Source of the DNA: Spirochaeta thermophila DSM 6192
Lineage (GTDB): Bacteria > Spirochaetota > Spirochaetia > Winmispirales > Winmispiraceae
DNA length: 64,000 nt
Direction of reading: 5' to 3'
Assembly (NCBI RefSeq): GCF_000147075.1
Contig: NC_014484.1
Location: 885,501 to 949,500 of the forward strand
Each line of letters opens with the position of its first letter. The stretch's first letter is position 1. The notes beneath the pieces are model-generated. The model did not search any database. It was given only the letters and a program-made list of their open reading frames with translations, and was not told where the DNA came from. Shown here one piece after another: positions 2,839 through 14,232 of this stretch. The position numbers and the translations under genes were made by a program.

Positions 2839-5800
2839 TCACTGGACCCATATCTCTTGCACGTACTCCTCTCTCCGGAGCTGATCGAGCAGGTCCCTCG
2901 AAGGCGATGTGGTGATGTGGACGGACGCCTTCACCACCTGTTCTTTTCCCGAGGAGAGGGGTACGTGGAGGAACACCTGACAGCGGCCGCGGTGCTTGAG
3001 GATGAGTTCCCGGATCTTGAAGAGGTGGTCTTCCGGTACCTGGGGACTTGCGAGCCTGATGTGGACTTCCTGTGCGCCCACGGGGGGCAGGTCCTTCGGA
3101 TCGAGCATCTCTTCCACGATGAACTTGTAGTCATCACGGTTCCTCTCCACACGTCCCCTGCATGCGACCACGGTGTCCGGGACGAGGGGGGAGGAGAGTG
3201 CCTCGTATACGTTGGGGAAGAAGACCGCCTCGATGCTCCCTCTGTAGTCCTCGATGGTACCGAAGGCCATGCGGTTCCCCTTCTGGGTCGTGATTTCGCG
3301 TACGGTCTTGAGGACTCCCATGAGCTGGTAGGTCCTCGAGGGATCGGTCCTCTCCGGATGGGAGAGATCGAGGTTCACCCCCTTCTCCCATATCTCGCGC
3401 AGGTGGTCGAGGGGATGGGATGAGAAGTAGAAACCGAGAAGTTCCCGCTCGTAGCGGAGCTTCTCCATGGTGTCCCAGTCTTCCACAGGGGTGAACTGGA
3501 ACTCTTCCCGGATCTGGGTTTCGGTCTCCTCGAAGAGGAAGCCCTGAGAGGCCTCCTGCTGCTCCTTTATGCGGTTCACGTGGGCGAGAAGGGCCTCCAG
3601 GTTGTGCATGAGTTCCGCCCGGTTGGGATGGAGGCTGTCGAAGACCCCTGCCTGGATGCATGTCTCGATCACCTTCCGGTTGACGGTGCGCAGATCCACT
3701 CGGAAAAGGAAGTCGATGAACGAGGTAAAGGGTCCTTCCTTCCGCTTGCCGAGGATCTCCTCCACTGCAGCGGTCCCCACGTTCTTTATGCCCACGAGGC
3801 CGTAGACGATCTTCCCGTCCCGGACCGTGAAGTAGCGTTCGGAGGCGTTGATGTCGGGAGGGAGGACCTCTATGCCCATCGCCCTGGTCTCGCCGATGTA
3901 TTGGGCGAGCTTGTCCGGGTTGCCGATCTCGTTCGTGAGGTTCGCGGCCATGAACTCCGCGGGATAGTGGGCCTTGAGGTAGGCGGTCTTGTAGGCGAGT
4001 ACGGAGTAGGCTGCGGCGTGGGACTTGTTGAACCCATAGCCTGCGAAGGGGATGAGGAGATCGAAGAGTTCCTCGGCGAACTGGCGGGAGTAGCCCTGGG
4101 CCACCGCCCCTGTGATGAACTTCTCCTTCTCCTTCGCCATGACCTCGGGCTTCTTCTTCCCCATGGCCCGGCGGAGGATGTCGGCTCCGCCCAGGGTGTA
4201 GCCCGCGATCTTCTGGGCGATCTGCATCACCTGTTCCTGGTAGACGATGACCCCGTAGGTCTCCTTGAGGATGGGTTCGAGGTCGGGGTGGGGGTAGGTG
4301 ATCTTCCGTCTGCCCTGTTTCGCCTCGATGAACTGGTCGATGAACTGCATGGGCCCGGGCCGGTAGAGGGCGTTGAGGGCGATGAGTTCTTCGATGCTCT
4401 CCGGTTTCGCCCTGCGGAGGATGTTCTGCATACCCTCACTCTCGAACTGGAAGACGCAGGTGCTCTTCCCCTCGGCCAGGAGCTGGAAGGTCTGTGCGTC
4501 GTCTTCTGGTATGCGTTCCGTATCGAAGTCGGGAGTGTGCGTGCGGACGAGCTCCTCGGTGTGGGTGATGAGGGTGAGGGTCTTGAGTCCGAGGAAGTCC
4601 ATCTTCACGAGCCCGCAGTCCTCGAGGTGTTCCATGGAGTACTGGGTGGAGATGTCGCCAGTCTTGGGATCCCGGTAGAGGGGCACGTAGTTGGTGAGGG
4701 CTTCCCGGCCGATCACGATACCCGCCGCATGGGTGGATGCGTGACGGCTGAGGCCCTGGAGCACCGAGCCTATCTGGAAGAGGCGCGTGTAGGTCTCGTC
4801 CTCCTCGGCGAGGCGGGCGAGTCTCGGTTCCCTCTGGATGGCCTCCTCGACCGATGATGCATCGCCCATGAGCTTGGTGAGTTCGTTCGCCTCGGCGAAG
4901 GGGATCCCGAGCACCCGGGCCACGTCCTTGATCACGGCCTTGGGCTTGAGGGTCCCGAAGGTGATGATCTGAGCGACCCGGTCCTTTCCATACTTCCGGG
5001 TCACGTAGTCGATCACCTCTTCGCGGCGCGCGTAGCAGAAGTCTATGTCGAAGTCGGGCATGGAGATCCGTTCGGGGTTGAGGAATCGCTCGAAGAGGAG
5101 GCCGTACTTGAGCGGGTCGATGTTGGTGATGCCCAGGGCATAGGCCACGATGGATCCGGCCCCGGACCCTCGACCCGGGCCCACGGGGATGCCCTGTTCC
5201 TTTGCGAAATGTACGAAGTCCCACACGATGAGGAAGTATCCGGTGAAGCCCATCTGGATGATGATGGACAGCTCGAGGTCGGCCCGCTCGCGGATCTCTC
5301 GCGTGATCTGATGATACCTCTTCTTGAGGCCCTCGTAGGTGAGGTGTCTCAGGTAGGCCTCGGGCGAGTCGAATCCCTCGGGGATATGGTATTCGGGGAG
5401 GAGGGGACCGGGGAATGGTATCTCGAAGGCGCAGCGTTCCGCGATCCGTACGGTGTTCTCCAGGGCCTCGGGGATGTCCTCGAAGAGGCGGGCCATCTCC
5501 TCGGGCGACTTGAGATAGAACTCCTGGGTCTCGAACCGCATCCTGTCCTGGTCTGAGAGCTTCTTGTTCGTGCCGATGCAGAGGAGCACCTCGTGGGCCT
5601 CGGCGTGTTCCCTGAGGAGGTAGTGCACGTCGTTGGTGGCCACCAGGGGGATGTCGAGCTCCTTCGAGAGTTCCACCAGGGTCTTGTTGACGCGTTTCTG
5701 CTCGGGGAGGCCGTGATCCTGGAGTTCCAGGTAGAAGCGGTCGGGGCCGAAGAGGTCCCGGTAGAACCGGGCGCGCTCGCGGGCTTTGTCGATCTGGCGG

Positions 5801-6249
5801 CCGAGGATGAGGGAGGGAATCTCTCCCCCGAGGCAGGAGCTCAAGGCGATGAGCCCTTCGTGATGTGCGGCGAGGAGTCCGTCGTCGATACGGGGTTTGT
5901 AGTAGAAACCAGTGAGGTAGCTCTCGGTCACGAGCTTGAGGAGATTGAGATACCCGGTGTAGTTCTCGGCGAGGAGGATGAGGTGGTAGTTGGCCGCGTG
6001 GTCTTGATCCTTGAGGGTGCGGGATTCCGGGGCCACGTAGCATTCGCATCCGAGGATCGGGGTCACTCCTGCCGCCCTGGCCTTCTTGTAGAACTCTATC
6101 ATGCCGAAGAGGTTGCCGTGATCGGTGAGGGCCACGGCGTCCATGTCGAGTTCCTTCACCCTCTTGACCAGGTCCCCTGTCTTGATGGAACCGTCGAGCA
6201 GGCTGTAGTCGCTGTGTACGTGGAGGTGCACGAACGGATGGGTGCTCAT
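2839..6249 (-). CDS. dnaE: DNA polymerase III alpha subunit DnaE
   Basis: The replicative polymerase catalytic subunit, 1136 residues, the usual size for DnaE1-type enzymes. Visible parts in order: N-terminal PHP domain (HLHVHSDYSLLDG, residues about 8-20), the palm with the catalytic PDFDIDF motif near residue 400 and GPGRGSGAGS before it, the thumb/fingers with GYGFNKSHAAAYS, tandem helix-hairpin-helix, and a C-terminal OB fold (GVLKTVREITTQKGNRM) followed by a tau-binding tail. The ATG at 6249 has no good Shine-Dalgarno sequence. A promoter just upstream would put the transcript start within about two bases of the ATG, so this may be a leaderless mRNA. First gene of the dnaE-yggT-recG-rsmD operon. 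Confidence 0.98.
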   Translation of the reverse strand: MSTHPFVHLHVHSDYSLLDGSIKTGDLVKRVKELDMDAVALTDHGNLFGMIEFYKKARAAGVTPILGCECYVAPESRTLKDQDHAANYHLILLAENYTGYLNLLKLVTESYLTGFYYKPRIDDGLLAAHHEGLIALSSCLGGEIPSLILGRQIDKARERARFYRDLFGPDRFYLELQDHGLPEQKRVNKTLVELSKELDIPLVATNDVHYLLREHAEAHEVLLCIGTNKKLSDQDRMRFETQEFYLKSPEEMARLFEDIPEALENTVRIAERCAFEIPFPGPLLPEYHIPEGFDSPEAYLRHLTYEGLKKRYHQITREIRERADLELSIIIQMGFTGYFLIVWDFVHFAKEQGIPVGPGRGSGAGSIVAYALGITNIDPLKYGLLFERFLNPERISMPDFDIDFCYARREEVIDYVTRKYGKDRVAQIITFGTLKPKAVIKDVARVLGIPFAEANELTKLMGDASSVEEAIQREPRLARLAEEDETYTRLFQIGSVLQGLSRHASTHAAGIVIGREALTNYVPLYRDPKTGDISTQYSMEHLEDCGLVKMDFLGLKTLTLITHTEELVRTHTPDFDTERIPEDDAQTFQLLAEGKSTCVFQFESEGMQNILRRAKPESIEELIALNALYRPGPMQFIDQFIEAKQGRRKITYPHPDLEPILKETYGVIVYQEQVMQIAQKIAGYTLGGADILRRAMGKKKPEVMAKEKEKFITGAVAQGYSRQFAEELFDLLIPFAGYGFNKSHAAAYSVLAYKTAYLKAHYPAEFMAANLTNEIGNPDKLAQYIGETRAMGIEVLPPDINASERYFTVRDGKIVYGLVGIKNVGTAAVEEILGKRKEGPFTSFIDFLFRVDLRTVNRKVIETCIQAGVFDSLHPNRAELMHNLEALLAHVNRIKEQQEASQGFLFEETETQIREEFQFTPVEDWDTMEKLRYERELLGFYFSSHPLDHLREIWEKGVNLDLSHPERTDPSRTYQLMGVLKTVREITTQKGNRMAFGTIEDYRGSIEAVFFPNVYEALSSPLVPDTVVACRGRVERNRDDYKFIVEEMLDPKDLPPVGAQEVHIRLASPQVPEDHLFKIRELILKHRGRCQVFLHVPLSSGKEQVVKASVHITTSPSRDLLDQLRREEYVQEIWVQ

Positions 6250-6371: not shown

Positions 6372-7226
6372 TCAGGCATAGCTCACGTTGAGGAGGAAGG
6401 TGTGGAGGAGGTGCAGGGCCTGCCGCTGTTCGTGGGGGGAGAGGCCGTACTGCTCCTGGGCGATGAGGGCCTCGGCTTCGTCCAGGGTGCGTGTCATCTC
6501 CCGTTCCGGAAGGGGGAGACGTTGGCCGGAGAGGAGTCCTTCCAGGTCGGCCATCCGGATGGGGAGGGGGTGTCGGGTGTGGAAGGCCCATCGGATCTCC
6601 TCGAGGAGGGAGCCCTCGCTCCGGGCGAGGCCGTAGAGGGTGAGTGGACGATCCATGCGGTGGGGCGGCGTGGCGGAGAAGAGGTGGGTGTGGGTCCAGG
6701 GGACTCGGGGGATGCGGATCCGGGTGAGGATCTCGTCTTCGTGGAGGAGGCTGAAGCCCTGCTGATTCCTGATGGCGGAGACGGGAATCCACCTGCTCCT
6801 CGTGGATGTGCGGATCTCGACCACCGCGTCGAGGAGGATGAGGGCGGGCGAGATCCCGAGGCTCCTGTCGGGTATGGTGAGGTTGCCGCCCATGGTGGCG
6901 TTCCACCTGACGGTGGGGGGGGCCGCGAGGAGGAGGGCCCGGGTGAGGAGGGGGGGGAGGACGGCGCGGGCCACGGTGGAGAGATGGCCCTGGCTCACCA
7001 TGGCGCCTATCTCCAGATACCGTTCCGTGCGGATGATTCGGCTCAGTTCCGAGACCCGCTGGAGCGTGATGATGGGTCCCTGGAAGCGGGTCCAGGTGCC
7101 GCTCATGGCGAGGTAGGTACCCCCTGCCATAAGGACGGCCTCGGGGCGCTTCCGGGCGAGGAGGAGGGCGTCTTGCAGGTCTTGGGGATAGTAGATGGCG
7201 ACGCCGGAGTGTCTAGTGGTGTCCAT
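6372..7226 (-). CDS. FAD-binding subunit of xanthine dehydrogenase/CO dehydrogenase family
   Basis: A 284-residue protein of the molybdopterin-dehydrogenase FAD subunit family (XdhB/CoxM type), which passes electrons between the iron-sulfur subunit and FAD. The two flavin-contacting motifs are recognisable: MAGGTYLAM near residue 33 (family AGGTDL) and TMGGNLT near residue 110 (family TIGGNI). The C-terminal CO_deh_flav_C-like region is present. The start overlaps the end of the iron-sulfur subunit gene by 14 bases, so the two are translationally coupled. It is the last gene of a five-gene operon that begins with sugar-nucleotide enzymes. Because the molybdenum subunit is atypical, the substrate, and whether the complex is a hydroxylase at all, are open. 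Confidence 0.85.
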   Translation of the reverse strand: MDTTRHSGVAIYYPQDLQDALLLARKRPEAVLMAGGTYLAMSGTWTRFQGPIITLQRVSELSRIIRTERYLEIGAMVSQGHLSTVARAVLPPLLTRALLLAAPPTVRWNATMGGNLTIPDRSLGISPALILLDAVVEIRTSTRSRWIPVSAIRNQQGFSLLHEDEILTRIRIPRVPWTHTHLFSATPPHRMDRPLTLYGLARSEGSLLEEIRWAFHTRHPLPIRMADLEGLLSGQRLPLPEREMTRTLDEAEALIAQEQYGLSPHEQRQALHLLHTFLLNVSYA

Positions 7227-7698
7227 ATCGCCTCTGCCTGAATCGGAGGGCCTTCACGAGGGCCCGGGTATACTCCTCTGGGGTGATGCACGTGCAGGGA
7301 AACCGTTCCACGTGTTCCCTCATGCCCCTGGGGTCCGTCTGATGGTGCTCGGCGTATACGAGGAGACTGTGACCGAGGAGGATGCGGGAGGGGGCGCAGT
7401 GCCCGCAGGGGAAGACCTTCTCGGCGTGGAATCCCTTCTCCAGATCCACGTAGTCGGGGGTGGAAGAGAAGCCTGCGATCGTGAGGATACGACGCTGTTG
7501 TACCGAGAAGAGGGGGACCATGCAGGCGAGGGAGAAGACGTCGTCGATGAGCACCCCGCATCGTCCGCAGTAGCCGCTACCGCACGACCCCTTCACCGCG
7601 GTGATCCGGAGTTCACTCTTGAGGAAGGAGTGCAGGTCCATGAGGGGATCCACCTCCTGTTGAAGGTGGACGTGATCGAGCTCACAGGTGAGCAACAT
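7213..7698 (-). CDS. [2Fe-2S] iron-sulfur subunit of xanthine dehydrogenase family
   Basis: A small iron-sulfur subunit of 161 residues from the chosen start. Both [2Fe-2S] clusters appear intact: the plant-ferredoxin-type set CGSGYCGRC with a later SLACM cysteine, and the helical-domain set PCGHC followed by PCTC. The ATG at 7698 is chosen over an in-frame ATG at 7740 because GGGAG lies about nine bases upstream and the protein then begins MLLTCELDHVHL, close to the usual strand order. This start lies 17 bases inside the end of the molybdenum-subunit gene. The electron-transfer subunits are thus better conserved than the catalytic one. Confidence 0.87.
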   Translation of the reverse strand: MLLTCELDHVHLQQEVDPLMDLHSFLKSELRITAVKGSCGSGYCGRCGVLIDDVFSLACMVPLFSVQQRRILTIAGFSSTPDYVDLEKGFHAEKVFPCGHCAPSRILLGHSLLVYAEHHQTDPRGMREHVERFPCTCITPEEYTRALVKALRFRQRRYGHH

Positions 7699-9685
7699 GG
7701 TGCTCTTCTCCCTGGATGAGGGTGGTTGAGCCCTCCCCATGGAGCTGGAGGAGGGCGAGATCGAGGGCGGGTGGGATGAGGGCGAAGGGGAGGTTCCCCG
7801 CGGGGAGAGGGACCGTGTTCTGGGAGGGGAAGAAGTGTATCTCTATGTTCGGAAGGGAGACGTCGGGAGAGAGATCGCTTCCCCACGAGGAGCGTCTCAT
7901 CGAAAGGGCCGTCAGGGTGTTCTGGATGAGGGTCCGCCTGAGGCCCTCGGGAGAGAGGATCCGTCCGGCATCGATGCAGAGCCAGATCTTCACGATCCGA
8001 GGGACGGGGGTGAGCGGGGTGGCCCGCACCTCCACCATGCCCACGCCCCATGCCTTTTCACTGGGAGGGAGGAGGTGATATCCCTGGGTGGTGGGTTTGA
8101 CCCTCGTCCCCCTCGCATAGACCGAGAGGTGGATGGGGAGGGGGGTACGGAATCGTTTCTGCTGGAGTTCCCTGCATGCCCTCACCAGGAGCCCGGTGAA
8201 GAGCCTCACGTTTCTCCCCATGGATGAGGGGCCTCCTGCGGGAAGGTCGGAGGTCCCCTCGAACGAGAAGGTGATCTTCCCCTCCGATATGCCGGTGTAC
8301 TCCTTGATGAGGGATGTCCAGACCTCACGTAGTTCCGGATGTTGCGGGAGGTGGGTGCTTCGTACTACGAGCGTTCCGTCGGTCTCCAGAGAGAGGGAGA
8401 GGGCGGCGCGTCGCCACCTCTCGGGGAACGAGAAGAACCCGTGCCAGAGGCCTGCGACCGCGAGACCCATGCCTCTCCTCGGTTCGAAGGGGAGGGCCTC
8501 TCTCTTTGATGCGAGGCGTTCGACCGTGAACTTGCGCGGGAAGTCGGCTTTCCGGGTGGCTTCCCGGACGAGGGTACGAAGCGCGTCGAAGGAAGGGTCT
8601 CCCCGGAGGTGTGTGAGCCTCCACTCCTCGGGAGAGACCCCGGCCTTGAGTGCCAGGTGGTTCATCATGTCCTCCACGGCACGGGCGATGGGCACATCTC
8701 CCAGGCCGGCGAAGAACCCAGTGGGAAGGAGGTTCGTCCGGACGGCGCGTATGGTGAGCCGCATGCTCTTCCATCGGTAGAGGGAGAGGATGGCGGAGAA
8801 TGCCCGATCGACCATCTCCCTGCTGAAGGGCGCGATGTACCCTGCATCGATGGAGATGAGGAGGTCGACCTTCCTCACGGCGTTCCGGGCGATCCAGGCG
8901 GTGTACTGGAGAAGTACCGAGGGGGCCTTGCTGCCGTAACGGCTCATCTCGTGGGGGGATAGGTGCAGCCTACACGGGCGCCCCGTTGTGCACGTGACGA
9001 AGGCCGCATAGGCGGAGCAGAGGAGGGGTGTGAGGACGTCCGCATCGTAGAGATGTTCCTCCCTGAAGAGGTGCACGTGGATCTTGGAGGAGGGCTTGCC
9101 GCACACATGGGCGACGGTGTCTCGGACGAGCGAGGGCCACGGACATGTGGTGGCGATGTGGAGTACTCCGTCAGCGAGGTAGGCGACGATGGTCTCCTCG
9201 CGAAGTGGCGGCAGGGACTCGGACGGGACGAGGATGCGGCCTTGTACGATCTCCGTCTCCGGTTCCTCCTCCCAGGGACCCCGTGTGGCGGTTCGAACGT
9301 GCGCGATCTGGTGTCCCAGGGCCTCTTCCGGCGAGACGGTGGCGGGGAGTTCCTCGTACGTCACCTGTATCCTCGAGAGGATCTCCCGCATCTCCCGGGA
9401 GGAGGGTGCGACGACGAGGAGGATGGGTTGTCCTTCATAGAAGACCTTGTCTTCCGCGAGGAGAGGGATCTCTTCATCGAGGATGGTGAGGGTGGGGCGG
9501 GGGAGGTCGGGTGCCCGGATGATGCCGATGGTGGAGGGGAGGTCCTGAGGGGGCTGGATCTCCTTGATCTTTGCGTGGGCCCTGGTGGACCTGAGGATGC
9601 CCACGTGGAGCATCCCGGGGAACGAGAGGTCGAGGGGATGAGCGGCCCCTCCGGTGAGTACGGTCCTCAGATCCCTGAGCATCAT
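7682..9685 (-). CDS. Divergent molybdopterin-binding subunit of xanthine dehydrogenase family
   Basis: A 667-residue relative of XdhA/CoxL large subunits, about 100 residues shorter than usual. The N-terminal ald_Xan_dh_C-type domain is clear (PGMLHVGILRSTRAHAKI, then LAEDKVFYEGQPILLVVA, then VTYEELPA). In the molybdopterin domain, the position before TGRPCRL that normally holds GGGFGGK reads LFREEHLYD; the position of RGFGAPQ reads GFFAGLGD; and the C-terminal GVGE glutamate segment reads PAGNLPF. These are alignments by eye. The protein may be a non-catalytic or altered spirochetal variant. It overlaps the upstream aminotransferase gene by four bases (ATGA) and the downstream iron-sulfur gene by 17. 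Confidence 0.8.
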   Translation of the reverse strand: MMLRDLRTVLTGGAAHPLDLSFPGMLHVGILRSTRAHAKIKEIQPPQDLPSTIGIIRAPDLPRPTLTILDEEIPLLAEDKVFYEGQPILLVVAPSSREMREILSRIQVTYEELPATVSPEEALGHQIAHVRTATRGPWEEEPETEIVQGRILVPSESLPPLREETIVAYLADGVLHIATTCPWPSLVRDTVAHVCGKPSSKIHVHLFREEHLYDADVLTPLLCSAYAAFVTCTTGRPCRLHLSPHEMSRYGSKAPSVLLQYTAWIARNAVRKVDLLISIDAGYIAPFSREMVDRAFSAILSLYRWKSMRLTIRAVRTNLLPTGFFAGLGDVPIARAVEDMMNHLALKAGVSPEEWRLTHLRGDPSFDALRTLVREATRKADFPRKFTVERLASKREALPFEPRRGMGLAVAGLWHGFFSFPERWRRAALSLSLETDGTLVVRSTHLPQHPELREVWTSLIKEYTGISEGKITFSFEGTSDLPAGGPSSMGRNVRLFTGLLVRACRELQQKRFRTPLPIHLSVYARGTRVKPTTQGYHLLPPSEKAWGVGMVEVRATPLTPVPRIVKIWLCIDAGRILSPEGLRRTLIQNTLTALSMRRSSWGSDLSPDVSLPNIEIHFFPSQNTVPLPAGNLPFALIPPALDLALLQLHGEGSTTLIQGEEHHVAHL

Positions 9686-10875
9686 GGCCTTTTCCTGTAG
9701 GCGGCGTCTCCCGTCTCCAGGACCGAACGGATCACGTAGTCCACCTCTTCGTCCGAGAGACCGGGATAGAGGGGAAGGCTGAAGGACCGCTGGTACACCT
9801 TCATGGAGACGGGGAAATCATCCGGCGAGAGGTGATAGCGTTCGCGGTAGTAAGGCATGAGGAAGAGAGGGATATAGTGGACCGATGTGCCGATACCCCG
9901 CCGGGTGAGGCTTTCGACATACTCATCCCGGGTGATGGAGAGGAGATCCTCCCTGATCCCAAGTATGAACAAGTGCCAGGCGTGTTCCTCCGGGGCGTCG
10001 GGAAGTATGAGGTAGTCCCTGGTGGCGAAGGCCTCCAGGTAGCGGAGGGCGATCCTCTTCCTCTCCTCCCTGAGCTTCCAGGCCTTGCGGAGCTGCACCC
10101 GGCCTATTGCGGCGAGGATGTCGGGCATGTTGTACTTGAATCCCGGTTCCACCACCTCGTAGTACCACGCGGCCCCGGCCGTTCGATAGCGATTCCATAC
10201 GGGCCTGTCGATCCCATGGAGCCTCATGAGCCTCACACGCCTCGCATACACCTCGCTCGCGGTGACCACCATGCCCCCCTCACCCGTGGTGATGGGCTTG
10301 GTGGCGTAGAAGGAGTAGACCCCCAGATCCCCGATGGTGCCGAGCGTCCCCAGCGGGGTCTCCACTGGAAAGGCATGAGCAGCGTCCTCCACCACCGCGA
10401 CTCCGACGGTGCGTGCGATCTCGAGGAGCTCCGCCATCCGGGCCCCGCGTCCTGCGAGGTGCACCGGCAGGACGACCTTCGCCTTTCGAACCACCACGGG
10501 GTCCTTCAGTGCACGTTCCACTTCACGGGGATCGATGGTGAGGGTCTTCTCATCGATGTCGCAGAAGAGGACCTCCGCCCCGAGGTAACGGGCAACTTCG
10601 GCCGTGGCGGTGAAAGTGTAGGGGGTGGTGATCACCAGATCCCCTTCCCGGACACCCACGGCCTCGAGGGCCAGGTGGAGCCCCGCGGTCGCCGACTGTA
10701 CTGCGCACGCATGCGGAACTCCCACTGCCTTGGCGAATTCCTCCTCGAAGGCGAGGGCCTCCTTCCCCGTGGTGAGCCAGCCGCTCCGTAGGACCCTGAG
10801 CACCGCCTCTTCTTCCTCCTTCCCTATGTGGGGCCGGGCGAACGGAATGGTGTAGGAGGGGGATGCCTCGCTCAT
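9682..10875 (-). CDS. DegT/DnrJ/EryC1/StrS family PLP-dependent sugar aminotransferase
   Basis: A 397-residue fold-type I aminotransferase of the DegT family, which transfers an amino group from glutamate to keto-sugar nucleotides for surface polysaccharide, glycoprotein or lipid sugars. Visible features: RPHIGKEEEEAVLRVLRSGW at the N-terminus, the PLP-contacting SATAGLHLAL stretch near residue 61, VEDAAHA near 162, and the Schiff-base lysine in YATKPITTGEGG (K193). It overlaps by four bases with the upstream FlaA1/CapD-like gene, consistent with successive steps (4,6-dehydration, then 4-amination). The same four-base overlap links it to the downstream molybdenum subunit gene, an unexpected partner. 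Confidence 0.92.
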   Translation of the reverse strand: MSEASPSYTIPFARPHIGKEEEEAVLRVLRSGWLTTGKEALAFEEEFAKAVGVPHACAVQSATAGLHLALEAVGVREGDLVITTPYTFTATAEVARYLGAEVLFCDIDEKTLTIDPREVERALKDPVVVRKAKVVLPVHLAGRGARMAELLEIARTVGVAVVEDAAHAFPVETPLGTLGTIGDLGVYSFYATKPITTGEGGMVVTASEVYARRVRLMRLHGIDRPVWNRYRTAGAAWYYEVVEPGFKYNMPDILAAIGRVQLRKAWKLREERKRIALRYLEAFATRDYLILPDAPEEHAWHLFILGIREDLLSITRDEYVESLTRRGIGTSVHYIPLFLMPYYRERYHLSPDDFPVSMKVYQRSFSLPLYPGLSDEEVDYVIRSVLETGDAAYRKRP

Positions 10876-12350
10876 GCCGAACGCCCCACCAGCACCCGAT
10901 AGGAGGAAAAGTATCTCGCGAGTACCTCCGTGAGGTGCTCCCTGTTCCGGTAGAGGTACTCCTTTCCCGGTACCCGGAAACAGATGGGCCGGAGCTCCTC
11001 GACGATCCTCTCCACCGGGAGGTTCGCCCCGCCGTTCCTCACCACCTGGAGGATCCCGGGATAGGGGGTGGGCTTGAGTTCCTCGTCCTCTGCGGTGAGG
11101 GTTTCGTGTTCCTTCTCTCCAGGACGAAGACCGATGTACTCGATGGGGATGTCACGGTGGGGTTCGAACCCGTAGAATCTGATCATCTGTTCGGCGAGGT
11201 CCTGGATCCGGATGGGCTTTCCCATGTCGAGGACGAAGAGCGCGCCCTTCTCCGTGACCCCTCCCGCCTTGAGGATGAGGGATGCCGCTTCCGGTATGGT
11301 CATGAAGAAGCGGGTGGTGCCGGGGGTGGTGATGGTCACGGGTCCTCCGGTGAGGATCTGTTCCTTGAAGAGCGGCATGATGCTCCCCCGGGATCCGAGT
11401 ACATTGCCGAACCTGACCACCATGTAGGCACAGACCTCCCCATCGCCGGAGAGCACGATCTCCTCGGCGATCCGTTTCGAACAGCCGTACACGCTCACCG
11501 GGTCGGCCGCCTTGTCGGTGGAGACGAAGACGAACCGTTGCGTCCCGGCGGCACGGGCCGCATCCACGAGGTTCCTGGTGCCGAAGACATTGTTCTTGAT
11601 GGCCTCCACCGGGTTCGCCTCCATGAGCGGCACGTGCTTATGGGCAGCACAGTGGAAGACCACGTCGGCCCTGAGGCGCTCGAGGATGTAGAACATGAAG
11701 TCCCTGTCCTGGAGCTCCCCGATGATGGGGACCACCGCGGCCTTCTCCCCGACCCCTTCCTTCTGCAGGAGGCGGAGCTCCCGGTCGATCTCGTAGATGC
11801 TGTTTTCCCCATGGCCGAGGAGGTAGAGGCGCTGCACCCCTCCGAAGAGGAGCTGGCGCGCGAGCTCGCTCCCGATGCTTCCCCCCGCCCCGGTGATGAG
11901 GACCCGCTTCCCCCGAAGGTACCTGAGGGCCTCGGAGAGATTGATGGTGAGGGGCTCCCGGGGGAGGAGGTCGACGGGGTCTATCTCCTTTGTCTGGATG
12001 AGATGTGCCTCGCCGTCAAGGATCTGGGATATGGTGGGGAGGATGCGGATGCGGCTGAAGCCGGCCTGCTTGAGGGCCTCGTAGATCCCCTTGAGGACCA
12101 TGCGCGAGGCACCCGGCATGGCGATGAGGGCCTCGTCGTGAGGTCTATTGCCGAGGACGGGCAGGACGTCTCGTATGGGACCCAGCACCGGAACCCCCAT
12201 GAGTTTCGTGCCGATCTTCCCGGGGTCGTCATCCAGAAAAGCCGCCACGGATCCGAAGATGCCCTTCTCCTGGATCTCCTTCGCAATGGCCGTACCGGCC
12301 AGCCCTGCGCCTATGATGTAGATTCGCGATGAACCCGTCGTCTTTCTCAT
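10872..12350 (-). CDS. FlaA1/CapD-type nucleotide-sugar 4,6-dehydratase, soluble short form
   Basis: A 492-residue polysaccharide-biosynthesis SDR. An N-terminal Rossmann-like domain (IYIIGAGLAGTAIA, residues 10-23) precedes the extended-SDR catalytic domain with TGAGGSIGS at 153-161, STDKAADP and VYGCSKR. Long CapD/PglF/WbpM relatives carry four N-terminal membrane helices and often Met in place of the catalytic Tyr. This one has no membrane helices and keeps Tyr-x-x-x-Lys, as in FlaA1-like enzymes. It probably makes a 4-keto-6-deoxy-HexNAc nucleotide that the neighbouring aminotransferase uses. Ribosome-binding AGAGAGG lies seven bases before the ATG. First gene of the minus-strand operon that ends with the xanthine-dehydrogenase-like trio. 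Confidence 0.88.
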   Translation of the reverse strand: MRKTTGSSRIYIIGAGLAGTAIAKEIQEKGIFGSVAAFLDDDPGKIGTKLMGVPVLGPIRDVLPVLGNRPHDEALIAMPGASRMVLKGIYEALKQAGFSRIRILPTISQILDGEAHLIQTKEIDPVDLLPREPLTINLSEALRYLRGKRVLITGAGGSIGSELARQLLFGGVQRLYLLGHGENSIYEIDRELRLLQKEGVGEKAAVVPIIGELQDRDFMFYILERLRADVVFHCAAHKHVPLMEANPVEAIKNNVFGTRNLVDAARAAGTQRFVFVSTDKAADPVSVYGCSKRIAEEIVLSGDGEVCAYMVVRFGNVLGSRGSIMPLFKEQILTGGPVTITTPGTTRFFMTIPEAASLILKAGGVTEKGALFVLDMGKPIRIQDLAEQMIRFYGFEPHRDIPIEYIGLRPGEKEHETLTAEDEELKPTPYPGILQVVRNGGANLPVERIVEELRPICFRVPGKEYLYRNREHLTEVLARYFSSYRVLVGRSA

Positions 12351-12516: not shown

Positions 12517-14232
12517 ATGGATCGGAAAACCCTGCTCCTCATGATATTCATAGGCGGTTTCGCGTGGACGAGCGTGGCCTCCCAGAACGTGTGGCAGGGG
12601 ACCGCCACCGTCTCGCGGTACGGCGACTTCCCCGCCGGCGGGTACTACGCTGCATCGAACGCGTTTCCGCCCAACACCTTGGTCGAGGTGACCAACCTCG
12701 AGAACAGTGCCACGATCACCGTGATCGTGACCCAGCCCTTGAAAGAGGAAGGACTCCTCCTCCTCCTCTCCGGGGATGCGGCCCGCGCCCTGGGCATCCC
12801 CTCGGGCACCATCGCCAGGGTGAGGGCGGTGGAGAAGTCCAGGGTCACGGCGGGTACAGCATCCGGAGGAGCAGGAATCACGTCCGACATCGATTTCAAT
12901 CCCGGAGCCACCATCCCCGAGAGCGCCCTCAGGCCCACCCCCACCCCCACCCCCGTCACCCCTCTCCCCACCCCGCGCCTCCAACCCGGCTCCGTCCCCC
13001 TCACCGCCTCCCTCCTCGAGCCCTCCCCACCCGCACCGGTCCCCACCACGCCCTCCACCCCCGCACCGACCCCCACCCCCGCCCCCGAACCCGTCCGCAC
13101 CGAACCCACACCGGCCGCCACCCTCGCCCCCACACCCGCGCCGGCCCCCACCCCGACCCCCGCCCCCGAACCCGCCCGCACCGAACCCACCGCACCCCCC
13201 ACCCCCACCCCCACCCCCACCCCCACCGTCCCCGTCCTCACCCCCACCACCCCCCCCACCGAACCCCTCCTCGCCCAGCTCTCCTCACGCACCCCCTCCA
13301 AACCCCTCCGACTCCCCCCCCGCACCGAGAACCCCTTCCTCTTCCTCACCGAACCCGAGACCACCCTCGACCTCTCCGAAGCCGAGATCGAACTCCTTGA
13401 GGAACCCGAACCCCCTGCCGAGGTCACCACGAGCACGCCGCAACCCACCCCCACACCGCAGCCCACCCCGACCCCTGCCCCCACCCCGACACCCGCATCC
13501 GCACCGAGCCCCCTCATCGCCCTCACCCCGCCCCGGCCCCTCACCCCCACCCCCACCCCCACCCCCACCCCCACCCCCATCCCCCTCGACGACCCGCCTC
13601 CCGTCCCGTCCCCTCAGCTCGCACCCGAACCACCCCATGCCCCCTCCCTCGCCTTTGCCCCACCCCTCCTCGAACCTGCCGCACCCGCACGCGATGAGGC
13701 CCTCGTGGAGACCCTCACCCCCCCCACCATACCCGACACCGCCCTCGTCGTCCCCCAGGAAGAACCCACCCTGGCCGAGGCCCCACCCACTCCCACCCCC
13801 ACCCCGATCCCCCCTGAAGGAGAGGTGGAACTGGCCCTCGTTCCCGCCGAGGAACGCCCCCCCGTCGCCCCTACCCCGAGTCCCGAGGAAGAGGCCATCG
13901 AGCGCATCATCGAGCAGCTCCCCCCCGCCCCCACACCCACCCCCACACCCGCCCCTGTGGTGTCCGAGACCAGTCTTCCCCTTGTCGATTCCCTCGATCC
14001 AGGTGCATATTACCTCCAGATAGGGGCCTTTCGACGCCCCCAGACAGCCCTGCACCTGGTACAGAGGATCCGCGCCACCTATCCGGTGGTCGCCTATCCC
14101 TCAGTGGGGCCGGAAGGCACGACCCTCTACCGCATCCTCGTCGGCCCATTAAGCGAGGACGAGAGCGGCACCCTCCTGTACTGGTTCAAGGCACAGGGCT
14201 TCAGAGACGCTTTCATCCAACGGGGGAGGTGA
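12517..14232 (+). CDS. Secreted protein: RlpA-like domain, long Pro/Thr tract, C-terminal SPOR domain
   Basis: A 571-residue envelope protein. Residues 1-22 are a signal peptide (LLLMIFIGGFAWTSVAS). Residues about 25-110 look like a double-psi beta-barrel of the RlpA kind: GTATVSRYGDFPAGGYYAAS, then LVEVTNLENSATITVIVTQP. Residues about 135-480 are low complexity, rich in Pro-Thr and Pro-Ala-Pro. The last 80 residues are a SPOR domain (YYLQIGAFRRPQTA, then RILVGPLSEDE), which binds glycan strands stripped of peptides at division sites. The gene probably makes a septal or cell-wall-associated protein whose flexible arm spans the periplasm; whether the barrel has transglycosylase activity is unknown. 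AAGGAG lies six bases before the ATG. It overlaps ligA at its end. Confidence 0.82.
   Translation: MDRKTLLLMIFIGGFAWTSVASQNVWQGTATVSRYGDFPAGGYYAASNAFPPNTLVEVTNLENSATITVIVTQPLKEEGLLLLLSGDAARALGIPSGTIARVRAVEKSRVTAGTASGGAGITSDIDFNPGATIPESALRPTPTPTPVTPLPTPRLQPGSVPLTASLLEPSPPAPVPTTPSTPAPTPTPAPEPVRTEPTPAATLAPTPAPAPTPTPAPEPARTEPTAPPTPTPTPTPTVPVLTPTTPPTEPLLAQLSSRTPSKPLRLPPRTENPFLFLTEPETTLDLSEAEIELLEEPEPPAEVTTSTPQPTPTPQPTPTPAPTPTPASAPSPLIALTPPRPLTPTPTPTPTPTPIPLDDPPPVPSPQLAPEPPHAPSLAFAPPLLEPAAPARDEALVETLTPPTIPDTALVVPQEEPTLAEAPPTPTPTPIPPEGEVELALVPAEERPPVAPTPSPEEEAIERIIEQLPPAPTPTPTPAPVVSETSLPLVDSLDPGAYYLQIGAFRRPQTALHLVQRIRATYPVVAYPSVGPEGTTLYRILVGPLSEDESGTLLYWFKAQGFRDAFIQRGR
12934..13960 (+). repeat. C-rich Pro/Thr coding repeat, includes CCCACC hexamer arrays
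   Basis: About 1 kb of the RlpA/SPOR gene is built almost entirely from CCC and ACC codons. Near-perfect hexamer arrays (unit CCCACC) lie at about 13195-13226 and 13543-13578, giving runs of C5 separated by single A bases. The minus strand therefore carries tandem GGGGGT tracts able to form G-quadruplexes. The hexamer unit keeps frame, so array length could vary without breaking the protein. Confidence 0.85.

Follow-up and report, generated by a model that had tools for sequence, protein, structure and literature searches.

A selective loss of the hydroxylase site from the molybdenum-subunit-like protein (MoL) of a three-subunit complex of the xanthine dehydrogenase (XDH) type is well supported, both in the window (the whole stretch of 64,000 nucleotides of Spirochaeta thermophila DSM 6192 analysed here) and throughout the class Spirochaetia. 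The original prediction, made from the sequence of the window, had proposed such a loss of classic hydroxylase chemistry, and the comparative evidence extends it to a whole class of bacteria. The complex is very probably not a molybdenum hydroxylase, and the best explanation, which we consider probable, is that of a molybdenum cofactor (Moco)-free, flavin-centred complex of XDH architecture, which derives from a canonical XDH of spirochaetes and is linked to a pathway for amino-sugar nucleotides.

The Moco site of the molybdenum-subunit-like protein

MoL is encoded by an intact reading frame on the reverse strand (7682..9685), open over 667 amino acids, and has the large-subunit architecture of the xanthine oxidase family, with a hammerhead and two MoCoBD domains recognised by Pfam and in a structure model (MoCoBD_1, 87.9 bits; hammerhead domain, 59.4 bits; MoCoBD_2, 24.8 bits, below its cut-off of 27). 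No NCBIfam XDH, AOX or CODH cut-off is reached, all of them lying far above the scores of the protein (92.6 vs 783.65 for PucD, 56.3 vs 780 for XdhA and 47.7 vs 991 for CoxL). In phmmer alignments, MoL is collinear with relatives of known structure, bovine xanthine oxidase among them, and a profile-profile alignment joins it to the canonical subunits over 684 columns (100%, E 2e-140). Three alignments (MAFFT and profile-profile) agree on the placement of the motifs.

In these alignments, the Moco segments GGxFGGK, RGFG, GQG and GQxxGG..QG are all absent from MoL. The place of GGGFGGK is taken by LFREEHLYD (residues 206-214, 9044..9070, reverse strand, as for all segments below), the canonical motif facing EHLYDAD at residues 210-216, and that of RGFG by GFFAGLGD (residues 323-330, 8696..8719), where RGFG faces AGLG and the catalytic-pocket arginine has become A326. 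The GQG pterin loop corresponds to HPE (residues 449-451, 8333..8341) and the GQxxGG..QG pterin loop to residues 584-595 (7901..7936), while the GxGE segment is replaced by PAGNLPF (residues 628-634, 7784..7804), in which LPAGN faces KGAGE and N631 stands at the position of the catalytic glutamate. The disappearance of GGGFGGK, of the RGFG-type arginine and of the GVGE glutamate, anticipated by the original prediction, is thus confirmed by all three alignments, and the three replacement segments that it named do lie opposite the canonical motifs.

Structure prediction, one of the checks proposed, returned a complete XDH large-subunit fold. The AlphaFold2 model, built on 51 sequences of which one is a canonical protein (L152), has a pLDDT of 87.1 and a pTM of 0.88; it most closely matches the xanthine oxidoreductases of cattle and rat (Z 33.5, rmsd 3.0 Å, 645 aligned residues, 18-19% identity), with a TM score of 0.83 in Foldseek. 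By this prediction, the protein keeps the architecture but has lost the Moco site. When the positions invariant in 18 sister canonical proteins are used as reference, mean retention in the family is 0.30 in the Moco segments (30 positions) and 0.44 elsewhere (93 positions; p 0.03), an excess of loss that is only modest because positional conservation is low throughout. At key side chains loss is near-total, with a retention of 0.04 at the second glycine of GGxFGGK, 0.06 at the RGFG arginine and 0.03 at both the GQG and the GQxxGG glutamine. Other residues are conserved in the family only, namely W183, E290, R384, C504, RFRxPLPI (511-518) and Q647. W183 occupies the position of a canonical cysteine beside the pocket glutamine, and E290 a position that, on the phmmer alignment, we count as bovine Ser876 of the substrate funnel. 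Their conservation suggests that some feature inside or close to the former pocket is under selection.

Distribution, Moco supply and origin of the family

A contig scan with MoL as a single protein found no relatives, while a match was found in 53 of 60 relatives, and a pattern search, based on a 7-row alignment since a 33-row alignment was too divergent to yield patterns, added 73 named loci, 72 of them spirochaetal. Profile matches occur in 353 of 395 genomes; as canonical paralogues are matched too, the family itself is present in that number at most. No match was obtained by profile search in one family of genomes (f19), which we take to be the Borrelia group. A genome of 1,139,633 bases (G076), presumably that of Treponema pallidum Nichols, carries the cassette CapD-DegT-MoL-FeS-FAD at about 84-91 kb, which we equate with TP0077-TP0081. 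A Selenomonas match (L152) was rejected as a member, being a canonical XDH throughout, and the phylum-level matches outside the class (L197-L202) were all canonical among those read. Judged from the sequences, the proteins form an orthologous family running through nearly all members of the class Spirochaetia, including T. pallidum, which causes syphilis.

The census comprised 113 non-redundant loci and the window, with the canonical L152 counted in the totals. The full GGxFGGK motif is found among the 113 loci in L152 alone and in no member of the family, and canonical paralogues of the same class keep it, so that its loss in the window is not a matter of chance; canonical paralogues in other classes of the phylum retain it too. 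The RGFG arginine occurs in about 7 (at most 8) rows, L152 included, and the GxGE glutamate in 40 of 114 aligned rows.

Profile searches of the 2.47 Mb single-contig genome to which the window belongs found no MoaC, MoeA, MoaA C-terminal domain or XdhC_CoxI, for which the same models were positive in 11, 11, 11 and 4 of 14 control genomes, respectively, and only one MoCoBD_1 gene was present in its 2,472,645 bases. Among 47 genomes with the family, MoaC was detected in 18, and neither MoaC nor MoeA in 29. Absence of the pathway is no proof in itself that molybdenum is absent, because ten genomes that lack MoaC/MoeA contain canonical XDH paralogues in which GGxFGGK is intact, as RGFG and GxGE usually are too. 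Since these paralogues are intact where MoaC and MoeA are missing, and the family lacks the motifs in Moco-making genomes as well, the loss is to be ascribed to the family rather than to the genomes that carry it, and its explanation as a by-product of genome-wide Moco loss was rejected. The canonical paralogues with intact GGxFGGK in spirochaete genomes in which neither MoaC nor MoeA was found (L184-L194) are orphan molybdoproteins that may scavenge Moco. Two of these loci also contain fused XdhD-like proteins of 958-990 amino acids without GGxFGGK or RGFG (L184 from 8211, L187 from 8177), which may represent another family in which the Moco site has changed.

In a maximum-likelihood tree, obtained by a quick search and with some long branches, a single branch (SH-aLRT 99) parts the family from all canonical proteins, XdhA and PaoC of E. 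coli among them. If the tree is rooted on the canonical side, the members come together in one clade, whose neighbour is the canonical spirochaetal XDH of the same gene order. A single origin would follow, in which the family diverged in an ancestor of the Spirochaetia from a canonical three-subunit XDH of order MoL-FeS-FAD, losing the pterin/molybdenum site and keeping the fold and the FAD site. Between the two genomes of Winmispira, the genus in which S. thermophila is now placed, dN/dS is 0.20 for MoL, 0.11 for FeS and 0.16 for FAD, with values of 0.03-0.15 for the neighbouring genes; purifying selection on the trio persists. Lineage-specific decay was discarded as an explanation, given that purifying selection acts on the genes and that the whole family shares the loss.

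Partner subunits and gene cassette

The 2Fe-2S subunit lies at 7213..7698 (reverse strand; the listed reading frame starts at 7740, the common start of the family being the ATG at 7698) and contains all eight cysteines of two 2Fe-2S clusters. The FAD subunit (6372..7226, reverse strand; FAD_binding_5), assigned by Pfam, alignment and predicted fold, contains AGGT and TMGGN, so that both partners retain their cofactor motifs in the window, as originally predicted. The model of the FAD subunit (pLDDT 90.5) matches the flavoproteins of CO dehydrogenase and XDH from end to end (Z 27.6, 2.6 Å, 272 residues); the C-terminal region, left unassigned by Pfam, is covered as well.

Across the family, the FAD motifs are found in about 103 of 108 rows (~95%) and all eight Fe-S cysteines in 88 of 112, giving an order of persistence FAD > Fe-S > molybdenum (none). 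Whole or partial loss of the cysteines affects L040, L048, L063, L077, L078, L125, L129, L133, L178, L179, L183 and a few others, a T. socranskii-like group with a one-residue shift (CC for CxC) having been scored as partial loss although it may still bind a cluster. Both clusters are gone in two complete genomes, G028 (L048) and G146 (L183), with genes and synteny kept; in these single-contig genomes nearly all eight cluster cysteines are missing from an FeS gene that still stands between MoL and FAD. T. pallidum (L178) has lost one cluster, the ferredoxin-like one next to FAD. In the XDH architecture this cluster sits between FAD and the Mo-proximal cluster, which makes the normal electron path unlikely there. 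Retained electron transfer, the further suggestion of the original prediction, therefore holds for this genome and not as a trait of the family, given that Fe-S ligands have been lost, wholly or in part, in T. pallidum, L048, L063, L125 and L183 while the three genes were kept. On the motif census, it is the FAD site that appears as the cofactor site persisting across the family.

Some observations go beyond the original prediction: the dehydratase and aminotransferase neighbours are fixed, Moco synthesis is absent, and the change is old and shared. MoL is preceded by a DegT/ArnB-like sugar aminotransferase (9682..10875, reverse strand) and this by the first gene of the cassette, a CapD/PglF-like UDP-sugar 4,6-dehydratase (10872..12350, reverse strand), with scores of 260 bits of DegT against ArnB and 247 bits of CapD against WlaL (PglF). 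CapD/DegT and DegT/MoL overlap by 4 bases (ATGA) and the MoL/FeS and FeS/FAD overlaps are longer; owing to these overlaps, the five genes CapD-DegT-MoL-FeS-FAD are probably transcribed together. The assignment of DegT as a PMP/Fe-S 3-dehydratase of the E1-E3 type was not supported, given the aminotransferase lysine context (FYATKPITTGEGG) and the best match to ArnB.

The order MoL-FeS-FAD is found in all 46 loci of relatives compared (L033-L078), and CapD-DegT lies directly ahead of MoL in 31 of them and in the window. In the remaining 15 loci the two genes do not both adjoin the trio, and several treponeme-like families have it without adjacent CapD-DegT, so that the tie to a sugar pathway cannot be absolute. 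The usual surroundings are dnaE-yggT-recG behind the cassette (in the window, dnaE at 2839..6249 on the reverse strand, then yggT at 2221-2811 and recG at 162-2213), and, on the opposite flank, ligA and a gene for a SPOR-domain protein. In most relatives a NusG paralogue (RfaH/LoaP-like, with NusG and KOW domains) directly precedes CapD (L035, 3788-4333; L039, 4793-5341), a place at which it is not found in the genome of the window. At 12517-14232 the window encodes a SPOR-domain-like protein, divergent from CapD, with a very long Pro/Thr-rich middle of low complexity. In one locus (L038, G007), in-frame stops interrupt CapD and the DegT gene is broken next to an intact MoL-FeS-FAD, owing to either gene decay or assembly errors.

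Function of the complex and its known relatives

In the explanation that we favour, the FAD subunit would be the working redox centre, and the persistence of its motifs makes it probable that FAD is the functional cofactor. MoL would serve as a scaffold and/or a substrate-binding partner with a remodelled pocket, to which the remaining Fe-S clusters may pass electrons from FAD, although they are dispensable in evolution. In most species the complex would be accessory to a CapD-DegT pathway making a 4-amino-4,6-dideoxy-sugar nucleotide. This functional tie, suggested by synteny and weakened by several treponeme-like families in which the trio persists with no CapD-DegT beside it, is put forward tentatively.

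A complex acting solely as a structural or regulatory scaffold, which performs no redox chemistry and holds or regulates partners such as CapD/DegT while the remaining cofactors merely stabilise it, would suit the kept synteny in genomes that have lost both Fe-S clusters (G028 and G146, loci L048 and L183) or one of them (T. pallidum, L178), and has a precedent in NuoG of complex I, where the Moco fold is kept without Moco (PMC5123574). It seems unlikely, since FAD motifs in ~95% of the family and Fe-S ligands in most members exceed the needs of a pure scaffold. We are more doubtful that the former pocket now houses a different cofactor or a substrate, making MoL a new enzyme that acts, for example, on a sugar nucleotide with electrons from FAD/Fe-S. 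The family-only residues (W183, E290, R384, C504, RFRxPLPI, Q647) and the cassette shared with CapD and DegT speak for it, but the Fe-S chain is broken in several lineages, other loci have the trio without CapD/DegT, and the new residues include no invariant set of catalytic appearance. Still more doubtful is the full version, in which the old molybdenum pocket is now the active site of a Mo-free flavin/Fe-S complex catalysing a redox reaction on the CapD/DegT-derived amino-sugar nucleotide throughout the Spirochaetia, T. pallidum included.

That the complex is still a molybdenum enzyme, its substitute residues binding Moco obtained by scavenging, is very unlikely. The overall fold is unchanged in the model, some members of the family have kept GxGE and a K/GK remnant, and there are many reports of orphan molybdoproteins in organisms that have no Moco pathway (PMC6147048); nonetheless, all pterin-contact loops have changed together, also in Moco-making genomes, none of the residues now at the former ligand positions stands out as newly invariant, and XdhC is absent from the genome of the window. 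A decaying pseudogene or a sequencing artefact can practically be dismissed: MoL is indeed the fastest-evolving gene of the operon, but intact frames over about 100 genomes, the dN/dS of 0.20 and the conserved synteny refute decay, and the gene is retained in the 1.14 Mb genome of T. pallidum.

Compared with known systems, the complex shares its three subunits and their folds with the xanthine oxidase family (XdhA/XdhC/XdhB, CoxL/S/M, PucD/E/C), and its gene order MoL-FeS-FAD with the canonical spirochaetal XDH operon, but differs from that family in having no Moco site, no XdhC in the genome of the window and a best NCBIfam score of 92.6 vs 784 bits. The adjacent CapD and DegT genes resemble bacillosamine-type pathways, in which a PglF/CapD dehydratase is combined with a PglE/ArnB-like aminotransferase; we know of no such pathway in which genes three to five are an XDH-like trio. 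A comparable case is the C-terminal domain of NuoG, whose molybdoenzyme fold no longer holds Moco but has been retained in a different role (PMC5123574), although NuoG belongs to the Mo/W-bisPGD superfamily and has a known place in complex I. Orphan molybdoproteins, too, are xanthine oxidase-family proteins in genomes without a Moco pathway, but no sequence feature marked such proteins in their survey (PMC6147048), whereas a clear one marks the spirochaete family.

T. pallidum TPASS_0079 and TPASS_0081 have been listed as xanthine dehydrogenase molybdoproteins (PMC4403809; correction PMC5951579), names that are probably misnomers; on the function of TP0077-TP0081 we found annotation papers only and nothing published on what these genes do. 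A complex usually annotated as a molybdenum hydroxylase has thus probably been turned into something else, and the minimal genome of a pathogen keeps this five-gene cassette. The family provides a class-wide sequence feature that would mark Moco-less relatives of xanthine oxidase, and would be to the xanthine oxidase family what NuoG is to its own superfamily.
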